Notes under the pieces: generated by a model | Databases searched by the model: none | The model's input: only the letters and a program-made list of their open reading frames with translations | Told to the model about the DNA's origin: nothing | Shown here: piece after piece, positions 38,905 through 49,247 of the stretch | Position numbering within the stretch: the first letter of the stretch is position 1 | Layout of the letters: the number at the start of each line of letters is the position of its first letter | From: Chloroflexi bacterium CFX6 | Lineage (GTDB): Bacteria; Chloroflexota; Anaerolineae; Anaerolineales; Villigracilaceae | Reading direction: 5' to 3' | DNA: 64,000 bases | Assembly (NCBI GenBank): GCA_030263595.1 | Contig: SZPG01000031.1 | Location: forward strand, 1 to 64,000 | Program-made: the position numbers and the translations under genes

Positions 38905-39030
38905 GGGCAAGTATAAAGCCAAACACAAACAGGGAATTGGACAGAAACAGGAAGATTTCGAGACAAAAGTCACATGCCTTCCGCCAACGAAGATGCTACA
39001 CTGTCCGTATATAAAGACAGGAGAATCAGC

Positions 39031-39432
39031 ATGGCGAGCAAAACACTTCTTTATATCGGCGCGGGGATACTTTTCCTGATCGGCTTGTGCCTGTTCGGAT
39101 ACGGCGTATTGAACGTGATCGGTTCGACCTCCGCCCAGGGCAGTTCCAACTGGTTGACCTTCGGACTCGGCTTCGGCTGTGTGGGCGTGTTGTTCCTCGC
39201 GGGGGGCGCGGGGTTGATCTATGCCGCGCAGCGCGGGACGAAGACCGAGGTCGTCCAGCAGGTGACGATGAAGGTGGACCTGCCCGGCGAAACAAAGATC
39301 GAGCAGATGAAATGCCGTTCCTGCGGGGGCGCGTTGAAAGCGGAAAACGTCAAAATGATCGCCGGCGCGCCGACCGTCGAATGTCCGTATTGCGGGACGA
39401 CGTATCAGTTGACCGAAGAACCGAAATGGTGA
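39031..39432 (+). CDS. Two-helix membrane protein with C-terminal zinc ribbon
   Basis: 133 residues; AGGAG upstream of the ATG. Two transmembrane helices (LLYIGAGILFLIGLCLFGYG and a second near residues 38-58), a linker, then a cytoplasmic zinc ribbon with CRSCGG and CPYCG. Lies upstream of the Cys-Ala tail protein in the same direction with a 46-base gap and may belong to the same unit. Family not recognised. Confidence 0.75.
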   Translation: MASKTLLYIGAGILFLIGLCLFGYGVLNVIGSTSAQGSSNWLTFGLGFGCVGVLFLAGGAGLIYAAQRGTKTEVVQQVTMKVDLPGETKIEQMKCRSCGGALKAENVKMIAGAPTVECPYCGTTYQLTEEPKW

Positions 39433-39478: not shown

Positions 39479-41131
39479 ATGAAGAAAAAACTTCTGACGA
39501 TTGCATTGACAGTTATCCTCGCGCTCAGCGTTACAACGACCGTCTTTGCGCAGGATTATTACTTCAGCCTCGATAGAATGGTCGTGCACGTCTATTGGAA
39601 TGCGGACGGCACGAGTTCGCTGGATTACCTGCTCACCTTCACCAACCAGCCGGGCGGTCATCCCATCGAATTCGTGGACGTGGGGATGCCGAACGGGAAT
39701 TTCGATTTCAACAGCATCCAAGCCAGCATCAATGGGAATCCGCTTTCCATTTCGAGGGACTTTCAAGGCACGGGCGACGGCTTTGCCGTGGAAATGGGTC
39801 GGTACACGATTCCGCCCGGGGAAACGGGAACAGTCCGCGTCGTCGTCGGACGCGTGTCGGGAGTCCTGTATAAAGACGAGGATGACGCGGAGTACGCCAG
39901 CGCGGTCTTCTCTCCACTGTTTTTTCAGCGGGACGTAATTACCGGGAACACCGACATCACCGTCGTCTATCACCTGCCGCCCGACGTGCAGCCCGACGAA
40001 CCGCGCTGGCATTCCTCGCCCTCGGGTTTCCCCACCGAACCGCAAACGGGATTCGATTCGTCGGGTCGCATCACGTACACGTGGATCAACCCCAACGCGA
40101 ACGGATATACGCGATACGAGTTCGGCGCGTCGTTCCCGAAGAGTTACGTCCCCGCCGACAGTATCGTAACCGTGCAACTGCCGTCTTTCTCGATTTCACC
40201 AGATGCGATCTTCAACCTGCTGTGCGTCGGTTTCTTCGCTTTCATGTTTTTGGGCATCCCCGTTCTTTCAGCCATTGCAGGCAACCGCCGCAAATTACAG
40301 TACATGCCGCCGAAGATCTCCATCGAGGGACACGGCATCAAGCGCGGGCTGACGGCGGTCGAGGCTGCGATCCTCATGGAACAACCGCTCGACAAGGTGA
40401 TGACGATGATCCTGTTTGGCGCGGTCAAGAAGGGCGCAGCGCAGGTCATTAAACGGGACCCGCTTCAAATCCAGGTCATCGAGCCGCTCCCCGAAGGTCT
40501 GCATGAGTATGAAAAGGATTTCCTCCAGGCGTTCCGCGCGGGATCGAATGCAAAGACCCGCCGCAAGGATTTGCAGGACATGACCGTGAAACTCGTCCGT
40601 TCGGTGTCCGAGAAGATGAAAGGCTTCAGCCGCCGCGAGACCGTGGACTATTACAAGGCGATCATGGAAAAGGCGTGGGCGCAGGTGGAAGCCGCGGACA
40701 CGCCGGAAGTCAAAAGCAAGATGTTCGACGACGCGCTGGAATGGACGATGCTCGACAAGGATTACGACGACCGCACGCGCCGCGTCTTCACCGGACCTGT
40801 ATTTGTTCCCGTTTGGTGGCATCGCTTCGACCCGGGCTGGGGCGGCGGAGCCAGAACCGCAGCCGCGCCATCCATGCCATCCGGTAGAGGTTCCACGGCG
40901 TTACCCGGCGCGGACTTCGCCGCGTCGGTGGTGGGAGGCGTGCAGACCTTCTCGCAAAAAGTCATCGGCAACGTGGGCGATTTCACCAGCCGCGTAACCA
41001 ATGTGACCAATCCGCCGCCAAAACCCAGCGGCACAACGGGAGGTCGCAGCGGCGGAGGCGGCGGGCGTTCCTGCGCCTGTGCCTGCGCGTGCGCGGGCTG
41101 CGCCTGCGCCTGCGCGGGGGGAGGAAGGTAG
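39479..41131 (+). CDS. DUF2207-like membrane protein ending in a Cys-Ala repeat
   Basis: 550 residues. Signal peptide MKKKLLTIALTVILALSVTT, a large extracytoplasmic beta domain (res 25-235), one transmembrane helix (LLCVGFFAFMFLGIPVLSAI), a cytoplasmic domain with RGLTAVEAAILMEQPLDKVM, and a glycine-rich end. The last 20 residues are SCACACACAGCACACAGGGR, seven Cys alternating with Ala. Overall layout resembles DUF2207/YciQ-like proteins. The Cys-Ala tail looks like a site for modification or metal/thioether linkage; two RiPP-type radical SAM genes lie downstream. Function not established. Confidence 0.85.
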   Translation: MKKKLLTIALTVILALSVTTTVFAQDYYFSLDRMVVHVYWNADGTSSLDYLLTFTNQPGGHPIEFVDVGMPNGNFDFNSIQASINGNPLSISRDFQGTGDGFAVEMGRYTIPPGETGTVRVVVGRVSGVLYKDEDDAEYASAVFSPLFFQRDVITGNTDITVVYHLPPDVQPDEPRWHSSPSGFPTEPQTGFDSSGRITYTWINPNANGYTRYEFGASFPKSYVPADSIVTVQLPSFSISPDAIFNLLCVGFFAFMFLGIPVLSAIAGNRRKLQYMPPKISIEGHGIKRGLTAVEAAILMEQPLDKVMTMILFGAVKKGAAQVIKRDPLQIQVIEPLPEGLHEYEKDFLQAFRAGSNAKTRRKDLQDMTVKLVRSVSEKMKGFSRRETVDYYKAIMEKAWAQVEAADTPEVKSKMFDDALEWTMLDKDYDDRTRRVFTGPVFVPVWWHRFDPGWGGGARTAAAPSMPSGRGSTALPGADFAASVVGGVQTFSQKVIGNVGDFTSRVTNVTNPPPKPSGTTGGRSGGGGGRSCACACACAGCACACAGGGR

Positions 41132-41135
41132 CGGA

Positions 41136-41157
41136 GTCCAACGTCTCCCGACGTTGG
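41136..41157. repeat. REP palindrome CCAACGT-CTCCCG-ACGTTGG
   Basis: Stem CCAACGT/ACGTTGG lies between the Cys-Ala protein and the RAYT gene. Its core GTCTCC.GAC is shared with the two palindromes downstream of the RAYT gene. Confidence 0.8.
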
Positions 41158-41181
41158 AAACTTGAATGAGAGAATAACTTT

Positions 41182-41715
41182 ATGAGCAACGATATTTTCA
41201 AACGCGCGCCGCATAACCCGCCGCACTTATTCATACCCAACACGCTTTACATGTTGACGGCATCCACCTATCAGAAGGAACCTCTCATCTCATCCCCAAA
41301 ACGAAAACGGGAATGGATTGAAGCGTTTCTGAATGCAGCCGAAATTTACAAGTGGTATGTCATCGCATGGGTTATCCTGCACAATCACTATCATGCCATT
41401 GTCCAATCCCCGGAGGATGTAGAAACGTTGTCCAAATTTGTGGGCAGTTACCACAAATTCACGGCGCGCAAATGGAATGATGAGGACAGTTCAAGCGGCA
41501 GAAAAGTATGGTGGAACTATTGGGATACCTGTATTCGCTCCGAAAACGAGTATTACAATCGTTTGCGATATATATTCTGGAACCCGGTTAAGCACGGATT
41601 GGTCGAAGCACCGGAAGACTATCCATTTAGCAATTACAAGGAATTCCTGATGAAATGGCAAGTGGACTTCGATTTTACAAATTTAGATGAGGTGGATGAT
41701 GTCCCTGAGTTTTAA
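41182..41715 (+). CDS. REP-associated tyrosine transposase (RAYT)
   Basis: 177 residues. Y1_Tnp/IS200-like fold: FIPNTLYMLTASTY, VIAWVILHNHYHAIVQSPED with the HxH (HUH) metal motif in HNHYH, and a catalytic-Tyr helix in NEYYNRLRYIFWNPVKHGLV. RAYTs are domesticated single-strand transposases that cut REP palindromes; matching palindromes flank this gene on both sides. A stand-alone gene without IS ends. Confidence 0.9.
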   Translation: MSNDIFKRAPHNPPHLFIPNTLYMLTASTYQKEPLISSPKRKREWIEAFLNAAEIYKWYVIAWVILHNHYHAIVQSPEDVETLSKFVGSYHKFTARKWNDEDSSSGRKVWWNYWDTCIRSENEYYNRLRYIFWNPVKHGLVEAPEDYPFSNYKEFLMKWQVDFDFTNLDEVDDVPEF

Positions 41716-41738
41716 TTCGCTGAAAACCGGAGTGCAAA

Positions 41739-41806
41739 GTCTCCTGACTTTGCCATTTCAAAAGACACTCCAAAGTCGGGAGACTTTGGACTCCAGACCG
41801 GGTCTC
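41739..41806. repeat. Two REP palindromes downstream of the RAYT gene
   Basis: GCAAAGTCTCCTGACTTTGC (41740-41759) and CCAAAGTCGGGAGACTTTGG (about 41781-41800), in opposite orientation, both in frame inside the N-terminal part of the next reading frame. A paired inverted arrangement is typical of REP/BIME units. Confidence 0.85.
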
Positions 41807-41990
41807 TACCACTACACCCGCGAGAACGGACACGAGAAATCGCGCATCCACCTGCGGCTCGACCCGGACGGCAACGGCACTTTGATCGTCAACGCCAACA
41901 GCATCATGCACTTGAACCCGACCGCCGCGTTCATGGCGTGGATGATTTTGGAGGGGAGAAGCGATGCGGAAATTACGAAGGCTGTCTCTA

Positions 41991-42047
41991 GAAAGTGGAA
42001 AGTGGAAAGTGGACAACTGGCGGACGATCTTTCTACTTTCCACTTTC
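41991..42047. repeat. Inverted repeat GAAAGTGGAAAGT...ACTTTCCACTTTC in the radical SAM gene
   Basis: 13-base perfect arms (41991-42003 and 42035-42047), translated as RKWKVESG...STFHF. The same CTTTCCACTTTCC vocabulary fills the gap at 55200-55318 and appears at 61388. Confidence 0.85.
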
Positions 42048-43131
42048 AACTCGAAGAACTTCTCCGTCCCGACGGCGCGTGCGCGATCCACGATCTCGAA
42101 TTGGAAATGAACATGCCGTTCAGCGCGCGTCCCTCCGCTCCATATCGCATGGATCTGGCGATCACGTATCGCTGCAACAACGACTGCGCGCACTGCTACA
42201 ACGCCCGCGAGCGGAACTTCCCCGAACTCGATACGGAGGGATGGTTCAAGGTTTTGGATCAACTCTGGGCGCTGGGCGTTCCGCACATCGTCTTCACCGG
42301 CGGCGAAGCGACGCTGAGAAACGATTTGCCCAAACTGATCCGCCACGCTGAATCCAACGGGCAGATCACCGGACTCAACACGAACGCGCGCCGCCTTGCG
42401 GATGAACGGTACGTGCAGCAACTGGTGGATGCCGGGCTCGATCACGTGCAGATCACGGTTGAATCGTGCGACGAGCAAATCCACGACCAGATGATGCGGG
42501 CGAAAGGCGCGTTCAAGCAGACCATTCAGGGATTGAAGAACGCCCTGCAAGCCAAACTCTACGTGATGACCAACACGACGATGCTGCGCACGAACCTGCA
42601 TACAATTCCCGATACGCTGGATTTTCTCGCCGATGTTGGCGTTCCGACCATCGGATTGAATGCGCTTATCTATTCGGGTCAGGGTCTCACGGTTGGGACA
42701 GGACTCAAGGAGAATGAACTGCAACCCATTCTCGACATCGCCACGCGCAAAACGAACGAGCGCGGACAAAGACTGATCTGGTACACGCCCACGCTGCACC
42801 GCGGCGCTGTACAGCATGTGCATCGAATCGAACGGGAACGTCCTGCCGTGCCAGTCGTATTACCATCCGCTCGGCAACTTCCTCACCGACTCGTGGGATT
42901 CGATCTGGAATCACGAACTATCCGTGCAATTGCGCGAGCGGCGAAACCTGCCCGCCAAATGCGAGGGCTGTCCCGTCGTTACCGAATGCGGAGGCGGCTG
43001 CCCGCTCACGTTCGAGACTCATCGAAAACAATATGGCGTCAATCTGCCTATCGTCAGTTAGCGCCTTGTCATTGAAGTTCTGGTTTTTAGCCGCATTGTG
43101 CGCAAACATCATGTACAAGAATTTCCATTAA

Positions 43132-43230
43132 CCACGAAGACACCGAGGCGCGGAGATTTGAAATATTTTTTCTCCGTGTCTCGGTGGTTCAAAACCCAAC
43201 GGGTCTCGACAGGCTCGACCCAATTGGTTC
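43132..43230. repeat. Intergenic inverted repeats before the second radical SAM gene
   Basis: ACCACGAAGACACCGAGG pairs imperfectly with CTCCGTGTCTCGGTGGT, and GGGTCTCGACAGGCTCGACCC is a second palindrome. Common dispersed intergenic repeat types. Confidence 0.6.
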
Positions 43231-43255
43231 CGGCTTACTCAAGTCAGGAGGCTCC

Positions 43256-44410
43256 ATGAAAATCGTCAATCGTCTTGCCGAGCGTTTCACCAAAGTCACC
43301 CCTCTGCCCGAAGGACTGCATCACATACAAGCCGCGCCGGAGGGCGAAAAACCTTTCCGCATCCATCTCCGATTACGCAAGGACGGCTCGGGCGTGATGA
43401 TCGTCAACGCGGCGACCGTGTTGAATCTCAACCCCACCGCCGCCGAATATGCCTATCACTTCATCAAAGGCACCGACCCCGAGGAAGCCGCAAAACAGAT
43501 CGCGGCGCGCTACCGCGTCAGCAAAGGGATGGCGCTGGAGGATTACCGCGACTTCACGGAGAGAATCCAGACCCTTATCTCCACGCCCGATTTGGATCCC
43601 GTCTCGTTTCTGGACCTCGAGCGGGTCCCGCCGCATTCAGCCGACCTCACCGCCCCGCTGCGCCTCGACTGCGCGCTGACCTACAAACTGCCGCGCGGCA
43701 CCAAAGCCGAATACGCCCCGGTCAAGCGCGTGGACCGCGAACTTAGCGCCGAAGAATGGCAGACCATCCTCGACAAAGCCTGGCGCGCCGGCATCCCGCA
43801 CGTCACGTTTACGGGAGGCGAACCCACGCTCCGCAACGACCTTCCCGAATTGATCGCGCACGCCGAAAAGATCGGTCAGGTCTGCGGCTTGCTTACGGAC
43901 GGGTTGAAACTCGCCGATAAAAAATATCTCGATACGCTGCTGCAAACCGGGCTCGATCACCTGCTCTTCCTGCTCCAACCTGAAAGCAAAAAATCATGGG
44001 ATGCGCTCGAAGTCATCATGCCCGAGGACATCTTTGTCACAGTGCATATCACGATCAACAAGAAGAACGCGAAGAAACTCGACGCCATCCTCGAAAGGCT
44101 CGCCGCTCTGGAAGTGAAGAGCATCTCCGCCAGCGCGGCCGATCCTTCATTGAAAAACGAACTCCAGGCATTGGCAAACAAAGCCGCGCATCTGAATCTG
44201 ACGCTGACATTCGATTTGCCCGTCCCCTATTCCGAACAAAATCCCGTCGCGCTGGAAACGGAGGAGGATGAAGTCCCCTCCGGCGCGGGCAAAGCCTGGC
44301 TGTACGTCGAACCCGACGGCGACGCGCTCCCCGCGCAGGGCATGGCTGACCAGGTGTTGGGCAATTTCCTAAGGGACGAGTGGGAAAAGATTTATTCCCG
44401 TTATGCGTAA
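43256..44410 (+). CDS. Radical SAM-like pseudoenzyme with PqqD-like domain
   Basis: 384 residues; AGGAGG before the ATG. N-terminal PqqD-like region (IHLRLRKDGSGVMIVNAATV, LNLNPTAAEYAYHFI) parallels the upstream gene, and the SAM barrel keeps VTFTGGEPTLRNDLPELIAH. However, the iron-sulfur motif is lost: the site reads CALTYKLPRGTKAEYAP with no CxxxCxxC, and the SPASM cysteines are gone (YVEPDGDALPAQG). So it should not bind the [4Fe-4S] cluster. Probably a partner or peptide-binding subunit of the active paralogue (inference). Confidence 0.85.
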   Translation: MKIVNRLAERFTKVTPLPEGLHHIQAAPEGEKPFRIHLRLRKDGSGVMIVNAATVLNLNPTAAEYAYHFIKGTDPEEAAKQIAARYRVSKGMALEDYRDFTERIQTLISTPDLDPVSFLDLERVPPHSADLTAPLRLDCALTYKLPRGTKAEYAPVKRVDRELSAEEWQTILDKAWRAGIPHVTFTGGEPTLRNDLPELIAHAEKIGQVCGLLTDGLKLADKKYLDTLLQTGLDHLLFLLQPESKKSWDALEVIMPEDIFVTVHITINKKNAKKLDAILERLAALEVKSISASAADPSLKNELQALANKAAHLNLTLTFDLPVPYSEQNPVALETEEDEVPSGAGKAWLYVEPDGDALPAQGMADQVLGNFLRDEWEKIYSRYA

Positions 44411-44448
44411 CAGGCGTTCCCTAACGCCGAGTTGCGCTATGCAGGCTT

Positions 44449-45137
44449 ATGGACTGGCACGCACGGTATCTGCAACAGGCAGCCTGGACGCGCGACTTGC
44501 GCGCCTACCTGAGGCGGGATGTGGGACGGGAGCCATCCTGCGCGACCTGCACACCTCTGCCTCGCGTCACGGTCTGGACCTCGATCCTGCCGCGCTCACC
44601 CATTGCCGACTCCACGCCCCAGCCGCGACCCTGACGCGCGGCAACGGGCTTACCCTCCCCTACCCCGATCAAACCTTCGACATCGTGTATTGTCATTTCT
44701 TTTTGCTGTGGGTCAGCGATCCATTGCAAGCGGTTCGCGAAATGAAACGCGTCACGCGACCGAATGGACATGTCCTTGCGCTGGCGGAACCCGATTACTT
44801 TTCTCGCGTTGACAAACCCGACGAATTGAAAATCCTCGGCGAATGGCAAAGGGAGTCGTTGCAAAGGCAGGGAGCGGATCCCGGCTTCGGGTCGCGTCTC
44901 GCGGGGACGTTTTTTCAGGCGGGGATCAACCTCCTCGAAGCGGGAACAATTCAAGGCGCAGGAAATGAGGCGTCTGCCCATGAGCGGGAAATGGAATGGG
45001 CAGTGTTGAAAGCCGATCTGGCGGGATTCGTCCCGGAGGATGAAATCCAAAAAATGAAATTGCTGGATGAACAAGCCTGGGAACGCGGCGAACGCATTTT
45101 GCACGTGCCGACGTATTTTGCGTGGGGGCGGGTGTAG
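44449..45137 (+). pseudogene. SAM-dependent methyltransferase with internal deletion and frameshift
   Basis: One frame starts MDWHARYLQQAAWTRDLRAY at 44449, a typical methyltransferase N-terminus, but is lost after about codon 21. The next frame resumes at EAGCGTGAILRDL (motif I, 44510 on) and continues through FDIVYCHFFLLWVSDPLQAV and TRPNGHVLALAEPDYF to the stop at 45137. The segment that should lead into motif I is missing. Either a real deletion or an assembly error. Third gene of the radical SAM locus. Confidence 0.75.
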
Positions 45138-45158: not shown

Positions 45159-46166
45159 ATGGAAATTTGTTATTTGCTTGCGTTTCCCGATTCAGGCGAG
45201 GAAACACATCAGCCTGCCGAGCAAATCAAGGGGTTGAAGGACGCGCCCTACTTCCAGCCGATTGACATCGAACTCAAGTCGCTCGGCGAGGAGACTCTGG
45301 TCGTCGAGGGCGTTGCAGTTGCGGTCACGCGCCAGAGATACGATGGGGTCGTGCAGATGATCGAGTGTCATTACGATCTGCGCGATCCGTTCGCGGCATC
45401 TGCGTTGTCGGACAGGACGAAGATCGAATCGGCATTGCAGAGCCGCTACATTCCAGAAACCCATCGTCAAAGCGGGTTGTTCGAGGAATACACGATCCTG
45501 CTGGTAAACGACGCCCGCCCAACTCCCGATAAATGGATCGAAAAACACGCGCCCGCACTCGCCAGATTCATCCGTTCACAGCGTGAGGTGCTGGGCAAGG
45601 AGGAGATCAGCGACATCCTCGTATCGCGCACGCGCTACTCCACGCAGGACCTGACGCTGGTGGATTGGGAGGGCGCGGTCATCGTTGCGCCCAACAACGA
45701 TTTTCAATCGGACATCGTGTTGTTGAAGATCGGCAACTATCAACTATTGCGCTACCGCATGTTGGATAAATCCATCGAAAACCTGCTCGACAGGATCAAC
45801 GAAAGGTTCTTCCAAAACAGGCGCCGGCCGCGTGCTACACACGGACTCGTGCGCCAGATCGCGGAACACAAACTGGAATTGATGCTCGACTTCGAACGCG
45901 CCGAACAGAATCTGCTTCTCATCGGCGACTGGTACACCGCCAAGTTGTACGAGTCCATTCACAACGAACTCTATCTCAACGACTGGAAGGAGAGCGTGCG
46001 AAACAAACTCGACAACCTCGAAAACATCGTCGCCACCATTCGGGAGAACTTCGTGCTTTCCTTCGAGAACCTGATGGATCGCCTGCAATTGATCGGCTGG
46101 GTGCTTTTGCTCGTCGGGTACCTTTATCTTTACGCGCTCGATGCAGGCTGGGTCGGTTTTCCATGA
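45159..46166 (+). CDS. Tail-anchored protein, RMD1/DUF155-like layout, unknown function
   Basis: 335 residues; TGAGG ahead of the ATG. Mixed alpha/beta N-terminal half (MEICYLLAFPDSGEE, EEYTILLVNDARP), a strand-rich centre (DLTLVDWEGAVIVAPNND), then long helices (EHKLELMLDFERAEQNLLLI, KLDNLENIVATIREN) leading to one C-terminal transmembrane helix (LIGWVLLLVGYLYLYAL). Long helices before a terminal membrane anchor resemble RMD1/YagE proteins, but conserved motifs of that family are not clear. Confidence 0.65.
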   Translation: MEICYLLAFPDSGEETHQPAEQIKGLKDAPYFQPIDIELKSLGEETLVVEGVAVAVTRQRYDGVVQMIECHYDLRDPFAASALSDRTKIESALQSRYIPETHRQSGLFEEYTILLVNDARPTPDKWIEKHAPALARFIRSQREVLGKEEISDILVSRTRYSTQDLTLVDWEGAVIVAPNNDFQSDIVLLKIGNYQLLRYRMLDKSIENLLDRINERFFQNRRRPRATHGLVRQIAEHKLELMLDFERAEQNLLLIGDWYTAKLYESIHNELYLNDWKESVRNKLDNLENIVATIRENFVLSFENLMDRLQLIGWVLLLVGYLYLYALDAGWVGFP

Positions 46167-46316: not shown

Positions 46317-49247
46317 ATGTCTGTTAACTGGCTTCAATTATCTGATTTTCACATTGGCAAGGATTTGAACGCCCAGAGGCAAATATGCGAAGAGATCATC
46401 AAACATGCCGAAAAACGCATTGCGTCACAAAACCTGCCCCTGGATTTTCTTTTCATAACCGGAGATTTGGCGAATAGAGGACAGGCGGATGAATACCGAA
46501 TTTTTTACGATGAGTTTCTTATTAATTTACTTTCAGCCATCAACCTGGATTTGAACAGGGTGCTGATTATTCCCGGAAATCACGACGTTAATATCAATAC
46601 AGCCAAATCTGTTAAACGATATGGGGTTTTTGACGAAATCAAAACATTTTTCGACGCCACCGAAGAAGGGCTTCAGGAAAGAAAATTCCTTTTTGGTAGA
46701 TTTGATGCCTACATAAACCATGATGAAGTATCGCCAAAAATTGACGGAGTTCACTGGGTATGTTCGAAGGATGGCATCACAACCAGGGTGTTCGATAATG
46801 TGAATGGTCACAGGGTGGGAATCATAGGCATGAACACTGCCTGGCTGTGTGAAGGGGATAAACCCGACAGGGAAAATCTTACACCGGGCGTAAATCTTGT
46901 CCGTAAAGCCGTAAAATCAATCGAGAATTGCGATATTCGTATCGCCTTGGGTCATCACCCATTCAGTTGGCTGGTGGACGACGACGAATCCACCGAGGAC
47001 AGTAAGGTAATCAGGAATCTGTTCGGCAGGAACGAGGTAATCTATTTACATGGTCACATCCACAAAGGCGAAAATAATTTCGAGTACGGGGCTGGCTATC
47101 CATTTCTAAGCATTGGCACAGAGGCATGTTTTGCGGCCAGAAAAGATAGAATTTGGCCCAACGGATTCTGCTGGGGACGACTGGACCCCACAGTCAATGA
47201 AGTTATGATCGAGCCTGTGCAGTGGAAGGATGTCGAGAATGATTTTGTTTTCAACAGCATGGCTTACGATTCGAAATTTTTGCCGGCGGATAAAAAGTGT
47301 TTTGTTTTTCCAATTCCCAAACCTGTAACCACAACAATTGAACCATCCAAGATTTCCAGTCCCCCGGCTGGCTGGCGAAGAATAGACAAACGATTTCTGA
47401 TCGAAAAAAAGAGCGCCTATCGCGCTTCAGATCTCGCCGACTTTTTTGATGGCGGTCTCCCGGATTGGGGGAAAGCCCAGAGTGATGATATCCCAAAAAG
47501 ATGGATTGTCCAAAAATTGCTGGATGATTTGAGAATAGCGGGTGAGCAAAAAAACGATGTCTGCTTCAGGGTTTTATTGGGCGCAGGTGGCGAGGGCAAG
47601 ACCACCGCTCTGATGCAGACGGTCGTGGAGTTGGTCGAAAATTCCAAAGATTGGAACATCCTGTGGCAGGAAGTTGTGTTCCCCAAAAAAGAAGGGGATG
47701 ACGAAGATCCAAACTGGAATGGAGAATATTTTGAAAATCTTCCTGAAATCCAGGGAAATTGGCTGATTGTCACAGACTCCGCGGATTCGATAGTTAATGG
47801 GCTAAGAAACACCCTGGAGGTCCTGCAAAATGATGGGAGGACCGACGTTCATTTTCTGGTCTCATGCAGGACGTCTGACTGGATGTCTGCGGATGCCAAT
47901 TTGCTGCCCTGGGATCTGCTCACAGATGATTATGAGGCCATCTATCTGAATCTAAAGCCGGAGGAGGCAAAAGACATACTCAAAGCATGGAAAAGACATG
48001 GGGGTTGGAAAAATCTTGAGGGTTTGTCCGAAGGTGATGCCATTCAAAAATTTCGGGAGGCTGCCATTTCAGAATCCGGGCGAAACGATCAAGCGAAATA
48101 CGACGAAGGCACTTTGCTCGGCGCAATGTTAACCCTCCGGTATGGGAAAAAATTACGTGGACATGTTCTTCAATTCATGCAAAAACTGAATAATATACAG
48201 GTTTCGGATGACAGAACCTTGTTGGATGTCTACGCCCTTATTGCGGTGCTGCATGCAGATGGTTTTAAGTACTTGTCGAAAACAGTACTGGCAAAGACGA
48301 TTGGGTATAAGATTGGGCAACTCTACCCAAAGGTGTTGAGCAAGTTGGCTGACGAGGCGGCGATCTTTACCCCTGCTTTTGCTGGTCCATACCAGGAATT
48401 AATTCTCACGCGTCACAAATCCGTGGCGGAGACCGTCACAGAAATCCTGATCAAAGAGTTTAGGTACGACATAACTGAGGCGGTATACGTACCATTGGTG
48501 CAGGCCGTGGACAGACTTTATTTGGAGGAAAAAATAAAAGTACCCAATGTAAGGGATTGGAATCTGCTCCCCAAATATTTTTTCGAAAGGAAAAAAATTG
48601 ACCTGGCTGTTCGTTTGATCGAGGCAAAACAGGAAATTCAACCGGAAAATCCGTATTTTGTAACTCAATTGGCAAACTTGTATCGAAACGCGGAGATGCA
48701 CGAGGAAAGTTCCGACGTATTTCGCGACGCTCCAGAGTATATAGAACGTGATCGCGCTTATTATCAGGAGTGGGGGACCTGTGAGGGAATAGCCGGAAAC
48801 CGATTATTGAGCGCCTGGTTAGTCGGTATATCCATAGCCAATTTTTGGGAAAGGCGATCGAAAAACTATGAGATCGGCGATCTCAATGATTATAGGTTGA
48901 AAACAGCGCTCAACTCCCTGTCCATCAACTTCAGGGAGTTGAGCAATACGGGTAACTCTGACTCGCAAACTTTTCTGAATGCCAGCGGCGCTAGCGCTTA
49001 TCTGGGTTTGATGGTTAAAGAGTTGGATGAAGAGACAAAGGCGTCGTTGGGACAAAATTGGAAATACTACAAATCAAAAGCGGGGTCGTCGGTCGAAGAT
49101 ATGGACAACATGAACGCCTTGAAGATCGTTGAGAACAGCATTCGCCTTGCGTGGAAAAGAACCGATAAATCAAACCTGCCGCAATGGTTGATACCGGCGG
49201 ATGAATTGAGCTTTAGAGGATTGGAAGATTACTTCAAGAACGTCTGA
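46317..49247 (+). CDS. Metallophosphoesterase - STAND-like NTPase - helical repeat protein (candidate defence gene)
   Basis: 976 residues; GGAGG before the ATG. Residues 1-300 form a calcineurin-like phosphoesterase with all motifs: LSDFHIG, FITGDLANRG, IIPGNHDVN, LGHHPFSW, YLHGHIHKG. Residues about 360-620 form a P-loop NTPase (Walker A LLGAGGEGKTTA, Walker B NWLIVTDSAD, then HFLVSCRTSDW as in STAND NTPases). The C-terminal 350 residues are helical, TPR-like. The coding sequence is visibly richer in A/T than both neighbours, suggesting transfer. The enzyme-NTPase-sensor order matches anti-phage STAND proteins (Avs type) with a different effector. Confidence 0.85.
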   Translation: MSVNWLQLSDFHIGKDLNAQRQICEEIIKHAEKRIASQNLPLDFLFITGDLANRGQADEYRIFYDEFLINLLSAINLDLNRVLIIPGNHDVNINTAKSVKRYGVFDEIKTFFDATEEGLQERKFLFGRFDAYINHDEVSPKIDGVHWVCSKDGITTRVFDNVNGHRVGIIGMNTAWLCEGDKPDRENLTPGVNLVRKAVKSIENCDIRIALGHHPFSWLVDDDESTEDSKVIRNLFGRNEVIYLHGHIHKGENNFEYGAGYPFLSIGTEACFAARKDRIWPNGFCWGRLDPTVNEVMIEPVQWKDVENDFVFNSMAYDSKFLPADKKCFVFPIPKPVTTTIEPSKISSPPAGWRRIDKRFLIEKKSAYRASDLADFFDGGLPDWGKAQSDDIPKRWIVQKLLDDLRIAGEQKNDVCFRVLLGAGGEGKTTALMQTVVELVENSKDWNILWQEVVFPKKEGDDEDPNWNGEYFENLPEIQGNWLIVTDSADSIVNGLRNTLEVLQNDGRTDVHFLVSCRTSDWMSADANLLPWDLLTDDYEAIYLNLKPEEAKDILKAWKRHGGWKNLEGLSEGDAIQKFREAAISESGRNDQAKYDEGTLLGAMLTLRYGKKLRGHVLQFMQKLNNIQVSDDRTLLDVYALIAVLHADGFKYLSKTVLAKTIGYKIGQLYPKVLSKLADEAAIFTPAFAGPYQELILTRHKSVAETVTEILIKEFRYDITEAVYVPLVQAVDRLYLEEKIKVPNVRDWNLLPKYFFERKKIDLAVRLIEAKQEIQPENPYFVTQLANLYRNAEMHEESSDVFRDAPEYIERDRAYYQEWGTCEGIAGNRLLSAWLVGISIANFWERRSKNYEIGDLNDYRLKTALNSLSINFRELSNTGNSDSQTFLNASGASAYLGLMVKELDEETKASLGQNWKYYKSKAGSSVEDMDNMNALKIVENSIRLAWKRTDKSNLPQWLIPADELSFRGLEDYFKNV

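Follow-up and report, generated by a model that had tools for sequence, protein, structure and literature searches.

According to the available portions of one report, the TIGR04222 (near_uncomplex) proteins are large membrane proteins with low-complexity C-terminal tails, often containing Cys, that are encoded beside MNIO enzymes and have been proposed as likely MNIO substrates (PMC12452194). In the same portions, these tails are described as varied, rich in Ser and Gly with scattered Cys, and predicted to lie in the periplasm, and the MNIO gene is missing from a third of the TIGR04222 genomes (PMC12452194). As far as these portions go, this is the closest idea in print to the system described here, in which a membrane protein with a Cys-Ala (CA) tail is encoded next to a radical SAM enzyme. 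The CA-tail system differs in that the enzyme is a radical SAM protein instead of an MNIO, and in that the tail is strict, predicted to be cytosolic and accompanied by one enzyme. Relatives of the tail protein match known family models weakly and singly; TIGR04222 is matched by 5 of 47 members with a best E of 3.2e-4, and the protein of locus L029 scores 16.1 bits against a cut-off of 43. No MNIO (DUF692) was found among the nine neighbouring proteins of the window that were scanned or among the representatives of the neighbour clusters.

DUF2207 proteins occur widely, with no function assigned to them as yet. Their large N-terminal part lies outside, a transmembrane segment follows, and the C-terminal part, which is also large, lies inside and includes a Gly/Ser-rich stretch; a member from Streptococcus mutans affects stress tolerance and biofilm, as described in the accessible part of PMC10457818. 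The modelled layout of the CA-tail protein resembles this, with an outer domain, a transmembrane helix and an inner Gly/Ser-rich part. Searches with the tail-protein profile find DUF2207 proteins at low strength, in part through the signal and transmembrane segments, and the DUF2207 models (PF09972 and PF20990) match none of the 47 CA-tail members at E <= 0.01 or over the gathering cut-off. By descent, the DUF2207 proteins look nearest.

The sactipeptide maturases SkfB, CteB and RumMC2 combine an RRE with radical SAM and SPASM domains, an arrangement shared by the enzyme encoded beside the tail gene (RSAM1). The substrates of sactipeptide maturases are short peptides, whereas the candidate substrate in the CA-tail system is a membrane protein of 550 aa. 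The radical SAM enzyme of the ACGX system (TIGR04340), which is named for a Cys-bearing repeat, is also a radical SAM/SPASM protein like RSAM1; in the window, the SPASM fragment alone matches this model, with 18.7 bits against a cut-off of 400. For RumMC2, an RRE-SPASM sactisynthase, the accessible part of the source describes the joining of Cys to Ala and even to Gly, with a loss of 2 Da per link, and the removal of the leader from RumC (PMC8188230). The best reading of the CA-tail system is that it works like a sactipeptide maturase system. No paper on a CA-tail protein was found in searches of open-licence literature, and the strings CACACAGGGR and CHSACHSAC were not found in the literature among the matches listed, where other string matches look like nucleotide sequence.

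The tail protein and its conserved end

The window, the whole stretch of DNA that was analysed, comprises 64,000 nucleotides of contig SZPG01000031.1 of Chloroflexi bacterium CFX6. The original prediction that its forward-strand ORF 39479-41131 ends in a Cys-Ala tail was confirmed: the ORF has an ATG start and encodes 550 aa, with seven Cys in the C-terminus SCACACACAGCACACAGGGR. The remark that the protein is unlike the usual small RiPP precursors also stands; of the sactipeptide and ranthipeptide features, the Cys-bearing C-terminal core is present and the short leader-plus-core precursor is not. The window's tail protein matches no model in Pfam or NCBIfam and, by sequence, no solved structure at E <= 1. 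In relatives with a complete body, the frame measures about 540-715 aa from stop to stop.

An AlphaFold2 model (47 sequences as input, mean pLDDT 86, pTM 0.54) predicts an N-terminal helix compatible with a signal sequence, followed by an outer beta domain at residues 25-222 (39551..40144, forward strand, as are all features below) and a long helix, read as a transmembrane segment, at residues 241-272 (40199..40294). A winged-helix-like element, as the model's secondary structure suggests, opens the putative cytosolic part at residues 293-333 (40355..40477); this part is helical to about residue 455, and residues 521-550 are disordered. The conserved tail SCACACACAGCACACAGGGR occupies residues 531-550 (41069..41128) with low pLDDT and is preceded by a Gly/Ser linker. 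Since the basic residues RRK lie close to the end of the long helix, the C-terminal half and the tail are taken to be cytosolic under the positive-inside rule, which would put the tail within reach of a radical SAM enzyme. The outer domain resembles residues 227-442 of the Ost1/ribophorin I chain 6ezn_A (VIA-align Z 17.0, rmsd 2.8 over 183 residues) and also the N-terminal domain of M1 aminopeptidases; the fold matches listed come from residues 25-222 alone and hardly probe the cytosolic part. The model is best read as a DUF2207-like single-pass membrane protein with its beta domain outside.

The canonical tail, a (CA)n run that may include a single Gly and is followed by GGGR, is present at 88 of the 92 loci scored, the window included; L029 and L030, which have no tblastn match, are not part of the 92. 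The other four comprise two broken frames (L028 and L062), an N run (L054) and an irregular Cys tail (L088). In terms of Cys counts on either side of the Gly, the canonical types are 4+3 (58 loci), 5+3 (9), 3+4 (8), six Cys without Gly (7), 2+4 (4) and 3+3 (2); these are counts of loci and not of independent lineages, with some loci being one genome reached twice. The pairs L006/L033 and L007/L038 have equal tails and identities, indicating that genomes overlap between the two locus sets. All seven Gly-free tails are archaeal, and the archaeal loci with other tail types are L091 (5+3) and L088. The latter (L088:7785-9650) is a Methanocella-labelled relative with the tail SCACVSCACACVSCACACACAGGGGGCT and an adjoining enzyme. 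In a survey restricted to alternating Cys runs at the ends of ORFs of at least 60 codons over 1.51 Mb, such runs were found in the canonical tails and in L088 alone.

The tail is far better conserved than the rest of the protein. Among 47 aligned proteins, which like the 37 aligned enzymes are a chosen subset, mean identity over the 698 pairs with bodies less than 35% identical is 91% for the tail, against 29% for the body and 27% for the linker, and GGGR is the C-terminus in 46 of the 47. Between the 55 different DNA sequences that encode the 4+3 tail, the median number of differing bases is 11 of 57; 15640 of the 16366 pairwise differences fall at codon position 3 and the remaining 726 at codon position 1. 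Strong selection acts on the tail at the level of the protein.

In a search of 400 genomes of the phylum that used no tail seed, the tail protein was found in 32 at E <= 1e-3 and in 28 at E <= 1e-100. The frame is unbroken in 27 of these 28 genomes, the window's own among them, and all of these frames end in the tail. Two tail-protein matches at E about 1e-4 (G015 and G147) were dropped, as their regions (L144 and L145) contain no profile match. A contig scan confirmed at least 64 loci from at least 592 stretches, with the body needed for confirmation and stretches with a seed but no body left uncounted; one of its six seeds was the tail CACACACA, so its loci favour tails and are incomplete. 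Among the matches listed, bacterial carriers are labelled Chloroflexota, Zixiibacteriota, Coatesbacteria, Aminicenantes, Acidobacteriota, Armatimonadetes and Pirellulales, and archaeal carriers Methanomassiliicoccales, Thermoplasmatota, Heimdallarchaeota and Sigynarchaeota, with further labels besides; most of these records are metagenome-assembled, so that the organism label of an individual contig could be mistaken. Cultured carriers include the records named Ornatilinea apprima P3M-1 (L056) and Leptolinea sp. HRD-7 (L051). The presence of the tail in many genomes rules out an assembly oddity as its source.

Radical SAM enzymes and the gene cassette

Two radical SAM-type genes lie downstream on the forward strand. 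RSAM1 (41687..43061) encodes a PqqD-like RRE, a radical SAM domain and a SPASM domain, the last of which (42816-43061) is read here in a different frame from the front part. Its scores are 28.3 bits for PF05402 (cut-off 23.4), 96.6 for PF04055 and 40.4 for SPASM in the other frame. A further match listing, used for RSAM1 and for the ZR protein below, keeps the higher-scoring of overlapping hits. The front part scores 115.9 bits against TIGR02109 (PqqE), under the equivalog cut-off of 381.35 and a lower bound because of the frameshift. RSAM2 (43184..44410) is a PqqD-like, radical SAM-like pseudoenzyme that lacks CX3CX2C; its PqqD-like score of 21.7 bits is below the cut-off of 23.4.

In 37 aligned enzymes, CX3CX2C and six SPASM cysteines are invariant. 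Compared with solved structures, the enzyme profile matches SkfB best (E 4.6e-32) and PqqE next (6.2e-28). A model of the enzyme of locus L031 (pTM 0.86) has RRE-like strands and helices, and in Foldseek it ranks SkfB first (23% identity), followed by SuiB and PqqE; it also matches an anaerobic sulfatase maturase, the epimerase EpeE and, at rank 9, 5why, which we take to be the CteB structure. Neither SuiB nor PqqE is known to make thioethers. As the likeness to SkfB is modest, with SuiB and PqqE close behind, it does not fix the choice of reaction. In a tree of the RSAM family, from which the window's broken RSAM1 and frames below 330 aa were left out, the pseudoenzymes without CX3CX2C form two clades, with the starred branches compatible with one origin. 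The pseudoenzyme is missing in many lineages, archaeal loci included.

The window's own RSAM1 is damaged. Set against L031, the gene shows a gap of about 47 bases near 42793 (42780-42816), together with a shift of frame; matches to L031 end at residue 337 and restart at residue 351 in another frame. Either the function was recently lost or the assembly is wrong at this point; the tail is intact. Between the tail gene and RSAM1 lies an element (41133..41794) with a REP-associated tyrosine transposase ORF (41182-41715, forward strand), framed by inverted repeats of 26 nt each (41133-41158 and 41769-41794). This element is not part of the tail/enzyme system; in relatives such as L031, the gap between tail gene and enzyme gene is about 40 bases, and the true start of RSAM1 is probably after the repeat that ends at 41794. 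The original prediction of same-strand PqqD/radical SAM/SPASM and pseudoenzyme genes downstream thus stands in that both are present, with the amendments that the SPASM enzyme is frameshifted and that a transposase gene intervenes.

Two further genes recur around the tail gene. Upstream, ZR (38974..39432, forward strand) encodes a small membrane protein whose C-terminus has the zinc-ribbon-like pattern CX2C/CX2C and whose family matches are weak; downstream, MT (44403..45137, forward strand) encodes a class I SAM-dependent methyltransferase. Across 65 loci among the matches listed (64 contig-scan loci and the window slice, counting ORFs of at least 80 aa and clusters in at least five loci), the tail protein is found in 65, radical SAM proteins, pseudoenzymes included, in 59, and MT and ZR in 44 each. 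The usual gene order is ZR-tail-RSAM1-(RSAM2)-MT. At loci with 3+4 or 2+4 tails, the order, where visible, is ZR-RSAM1-pseudoenzyme-tail-MT; the 12 such loci comprise nine with RSAM1-pseudoenzyme-tail, one with pseudoenzyme-tail and two with no enzyme in the locus. L055 and L047 have 4+3 tails, yet the active enzymes of their genomes belong to the 3+4/2+4 clade, so tail format and enzyme clade do not always agree. A protein with a hydrophobic C-terminus (45159..46166, forward strand) is encoded at 10 of the 65 listed loci, and all 10 are Chloroflexota, the window included. No protease or exporter was found inside the cassette at the 65 listed loci. Around it, an S26 signal peptidase cluster (c9) occurs at 7 and an ABC-transporter ATPase cluster (c5) at 12 of the 65, c9 in Chloroflexota loci only and c5 at varying positions away from the cassette.

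The linkage between tail and enzyme was the point on which the original prediction could fail, had the tail been equally common without radical SAM genes. This is not the case: the strong enzyme and the strong tail protein occur in the same 28 of 400 phylum genomes, the window's included, at a threshold (E <= 1e-100 for both searches) that was fixed after the match tables were seen. Looser cut-offs add G136 and G382 in both searches (CHSA type, see below), G096 in the enzyme search only (a pseudoenzyme) and the weak G015 and G147 in the tail-protein search only. Within the window's family, the genomes listed comprise 18 with tail protein and enzyme, six with neither and one, G096, with a pseudoenzyme remnant. 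No tail gene or active enzyme was found in G096, whose contig 35 (L146) carries a damaged pseudoenzyme and methyltransferase pieces, seemingly a decaying cassette.

An enzyme with intact CX3CX2C is encoded at 55 of the 64 loci among the matches listed, at 54 of them on the strand of the tail gene. Of the eight genomes searched for the nine enzyme-less loci, six have the enzyme on another contig at E < 1e-170; in G405 and G407 it lies deep inside long contigs, whereas at L065, L072 and L082, which are cut by contig ends, tail and enzyme may still be linked. The L053 contig stops within the enzyme gene. No enzyme at that strength was found in G406, where the contig of L044 stops just past the tail gene, or in G404, where L069 has the tail protein and the methyltransferase. 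G404 is possibly a single counter-example or an incomplete genome. Over 34 loci, the pairwise distances among tail-protein bodies correlate with those among the enzymes, with a Mantel r of 0.895 that none of 999 shuffles equalled; this is mostly through shared descent, and shared ancestry inflates the co-occurrence counts as well.

The pairing is also informative outside the CA-tail family. Ten DUF2207- or TIGR04222-like membrane proteins from the same phylum have Cys-free ends, mostly Gly-rich runs, and no RRE-bearing enzyme of the RSAM1 type was found in their flanks (up to about 6 kb per side, shortened by contig ends for L167 and L173). These controls are from 10 genomes out of 17 match rows, of which two are CHSA and one is a second G088 protein, with the short or broken matches of G073, G107, G049 and G004 set aside. 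Near the control L170, a generic radical SAM gene without an RRE part lies about 4.5 kb away (model positions 133-440). Both DUF2207 models are passed by all four of the Cys-free proteins scanned. Three relatives with (CHSA)n tails (L141:8093-9847, L142:4792-6642 and L143:4052-5824) each have their own divergent PqqD-radical SAM gene adjoining; long branches in the RSAM-family tree make the placement of the CHSA enzymes unsure. G011 carries both the CA-tail and the CHSA system, and its CHSA protein passes PF09972 (the DUF2207 N-terminal model) with 25.4 against 24.4 bits. Together, the controls without enzyme and the CHSA proteins with their own enzyme indicate that Cys tail and enzyme come together in one membrane-protein superfamily. 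ZR-like genes, weakly matched, also occur in the neighbourhood of two of the Cys-free controls and of two CHSA loci; their presence near controls suggests that ZR is tied to the membrane protein and not to the enzyme.

Proposed modification of the tail and alternative explanations

Taken as a whole, the explanation that we lean towards is that the tail is modified in place by the neighbouring PqqD-radical SAM-SPASM enzyme and then retained. That the tail is the enzyme's substrate is very likely, judging from the gene pairing and the tail sequence. The flexible Gly/Ser linker would present (CA)n-G-(CA)m-GGGR at the cytosolic end of the protein, where the enzyme's RRE might bind the cytosolic part or the linker while the enzyme acts along the Cys/Ala run. 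In this reaction, sactionine-type thioethers would connect Cys sulphur to Ala backbone carbons, each link lowering the mass by 2 Da. Links to Ala are the leading candidate because the enzyme is closest to SkfB and because RumMC2 can use Ala and Gly as partners of Cys; thioether chemistry has about an even chance of being correct. The single Gly could act as a turn, so that in the folded-back tail each Cys would lie opposite an Ala or Gly. With the turn at position g, position i would pair with 2g-i, and a Gly-free even run would give the same result; this Cys-Ala/Gly pairing follows in every canonical tail type from the syntax alone and is arithmetic, not a model. The hairpin register is doubtful.

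Regarding the fate of the tail, the original prediction spoke of the modified region of a membrane precursor. The pairing with the enzyme agrees with the modified region, while the word precursor is doubtful, as the cassette appears to encode no protease or exporter. The tail may thus stay on the protein, and its retention is considered likely. A retained tail would form a rigid or metal-binding cytosolic element with which ZR and MT act. In its widest and quite tentative form, the proposal is of a bacterial and archaeal system that builds a Gly-turn Cys-Ala thioether ladder on a retained cytosolic tail, with the CHSA proteins as a sister system, both having arisen out of the DUF2207 superfamily by gain of a Cys tail and an own enzyme. 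If true, radical SAM peptide chemistry would extend beyond small peptides to a standing modification of membrane proteins in bacteria and archaea, and the near-invariant short tail would offer a clean, testable substrate.

Several alternatives were weighed against this explanation. The tail could be the substrate of another reaction, such as formylglycine-type Cys oxidation, epimerisation of Ala or Cys, the formation of beta-carbon thioethers (radical-made lanthionine) or a C-C link. SPASM enzymes catalyse many such reactions; the fold matches of the enzyme model extend to PqqE, SuiB, EpeE and the anaerobic sulfatase maturase, and a methyltransferase recurs in the cassette. The strict Cys/Ala alternation, though, would better fit a rule in which Cys is partnered with Ala, and the best match in both sequence and fold is a sactisynthase; another reaction is the less probable outcome. 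An unmodified metal-thiolate site (Cu, Zn, Cd or Fe-S), with the radical SAM gene serving another substrate or product, would account for six to eight closely spaced cysteines and for the adjoining gene of a zinc-ribbon-like protein. It also has a parallel in MNIO-made bufferins, which chelate copper and are discussed together with TIGR04222 proteins in the available part of PMC12452194. Such a site is improbable, since tail and enzyme are retained, and disappear, as a pair, a different type of enzyme accompanies the CHSA tails, and apart from L088 no further ORF end with an alternating Cys run was found among ORFs of at least 60 codons in 1.51 Mb.

A classical secreted RiPP, in which the tail would be cleaved from a large protein that serves only as its carrier and would leave the cell as a peptide, is less probable still. 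Large protein-like leaders do exist, to go by a title in the reference list of PMC12710340, and the S26 signal peptidase and ABC ATPase clusters are found near some of the listed loci (7 and 12 of 65). The Chloroflexota-only occurrence of the former and the varying position of the latter are, however, what common genes would give; the tail is predicted to be cytosolic, and its near-invariance from bacteria to archaea would be unlike a secreted toxin or signal. Codon-repeat slippage that produced a tail with no dedicated function would fit a two-codon repeat, but the DNA of 4+3 tails varies nearly always at position 3 and GGGR closes all but one of the aligned proteins, so that this origin has next to no probability. 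The silent-site variation rules out chance or slippage as the origin of the tail.

Paralogs that consist of the cytosolic part only, without the Cys tail, are encoded beside an active enzyme at L138:7660-8661 and L055:10932-11960. In the window, the cassette is followed by a gene for a large protein (46317-49247) that has LQLSDFHIGK and GNHD in its first part and also contains GAGGEGKTT. The former motifs are presumably metallophosphoesterase-like and the latter a P-loop, and the protein could, from its sequence, be a defence or signalling NTPase.
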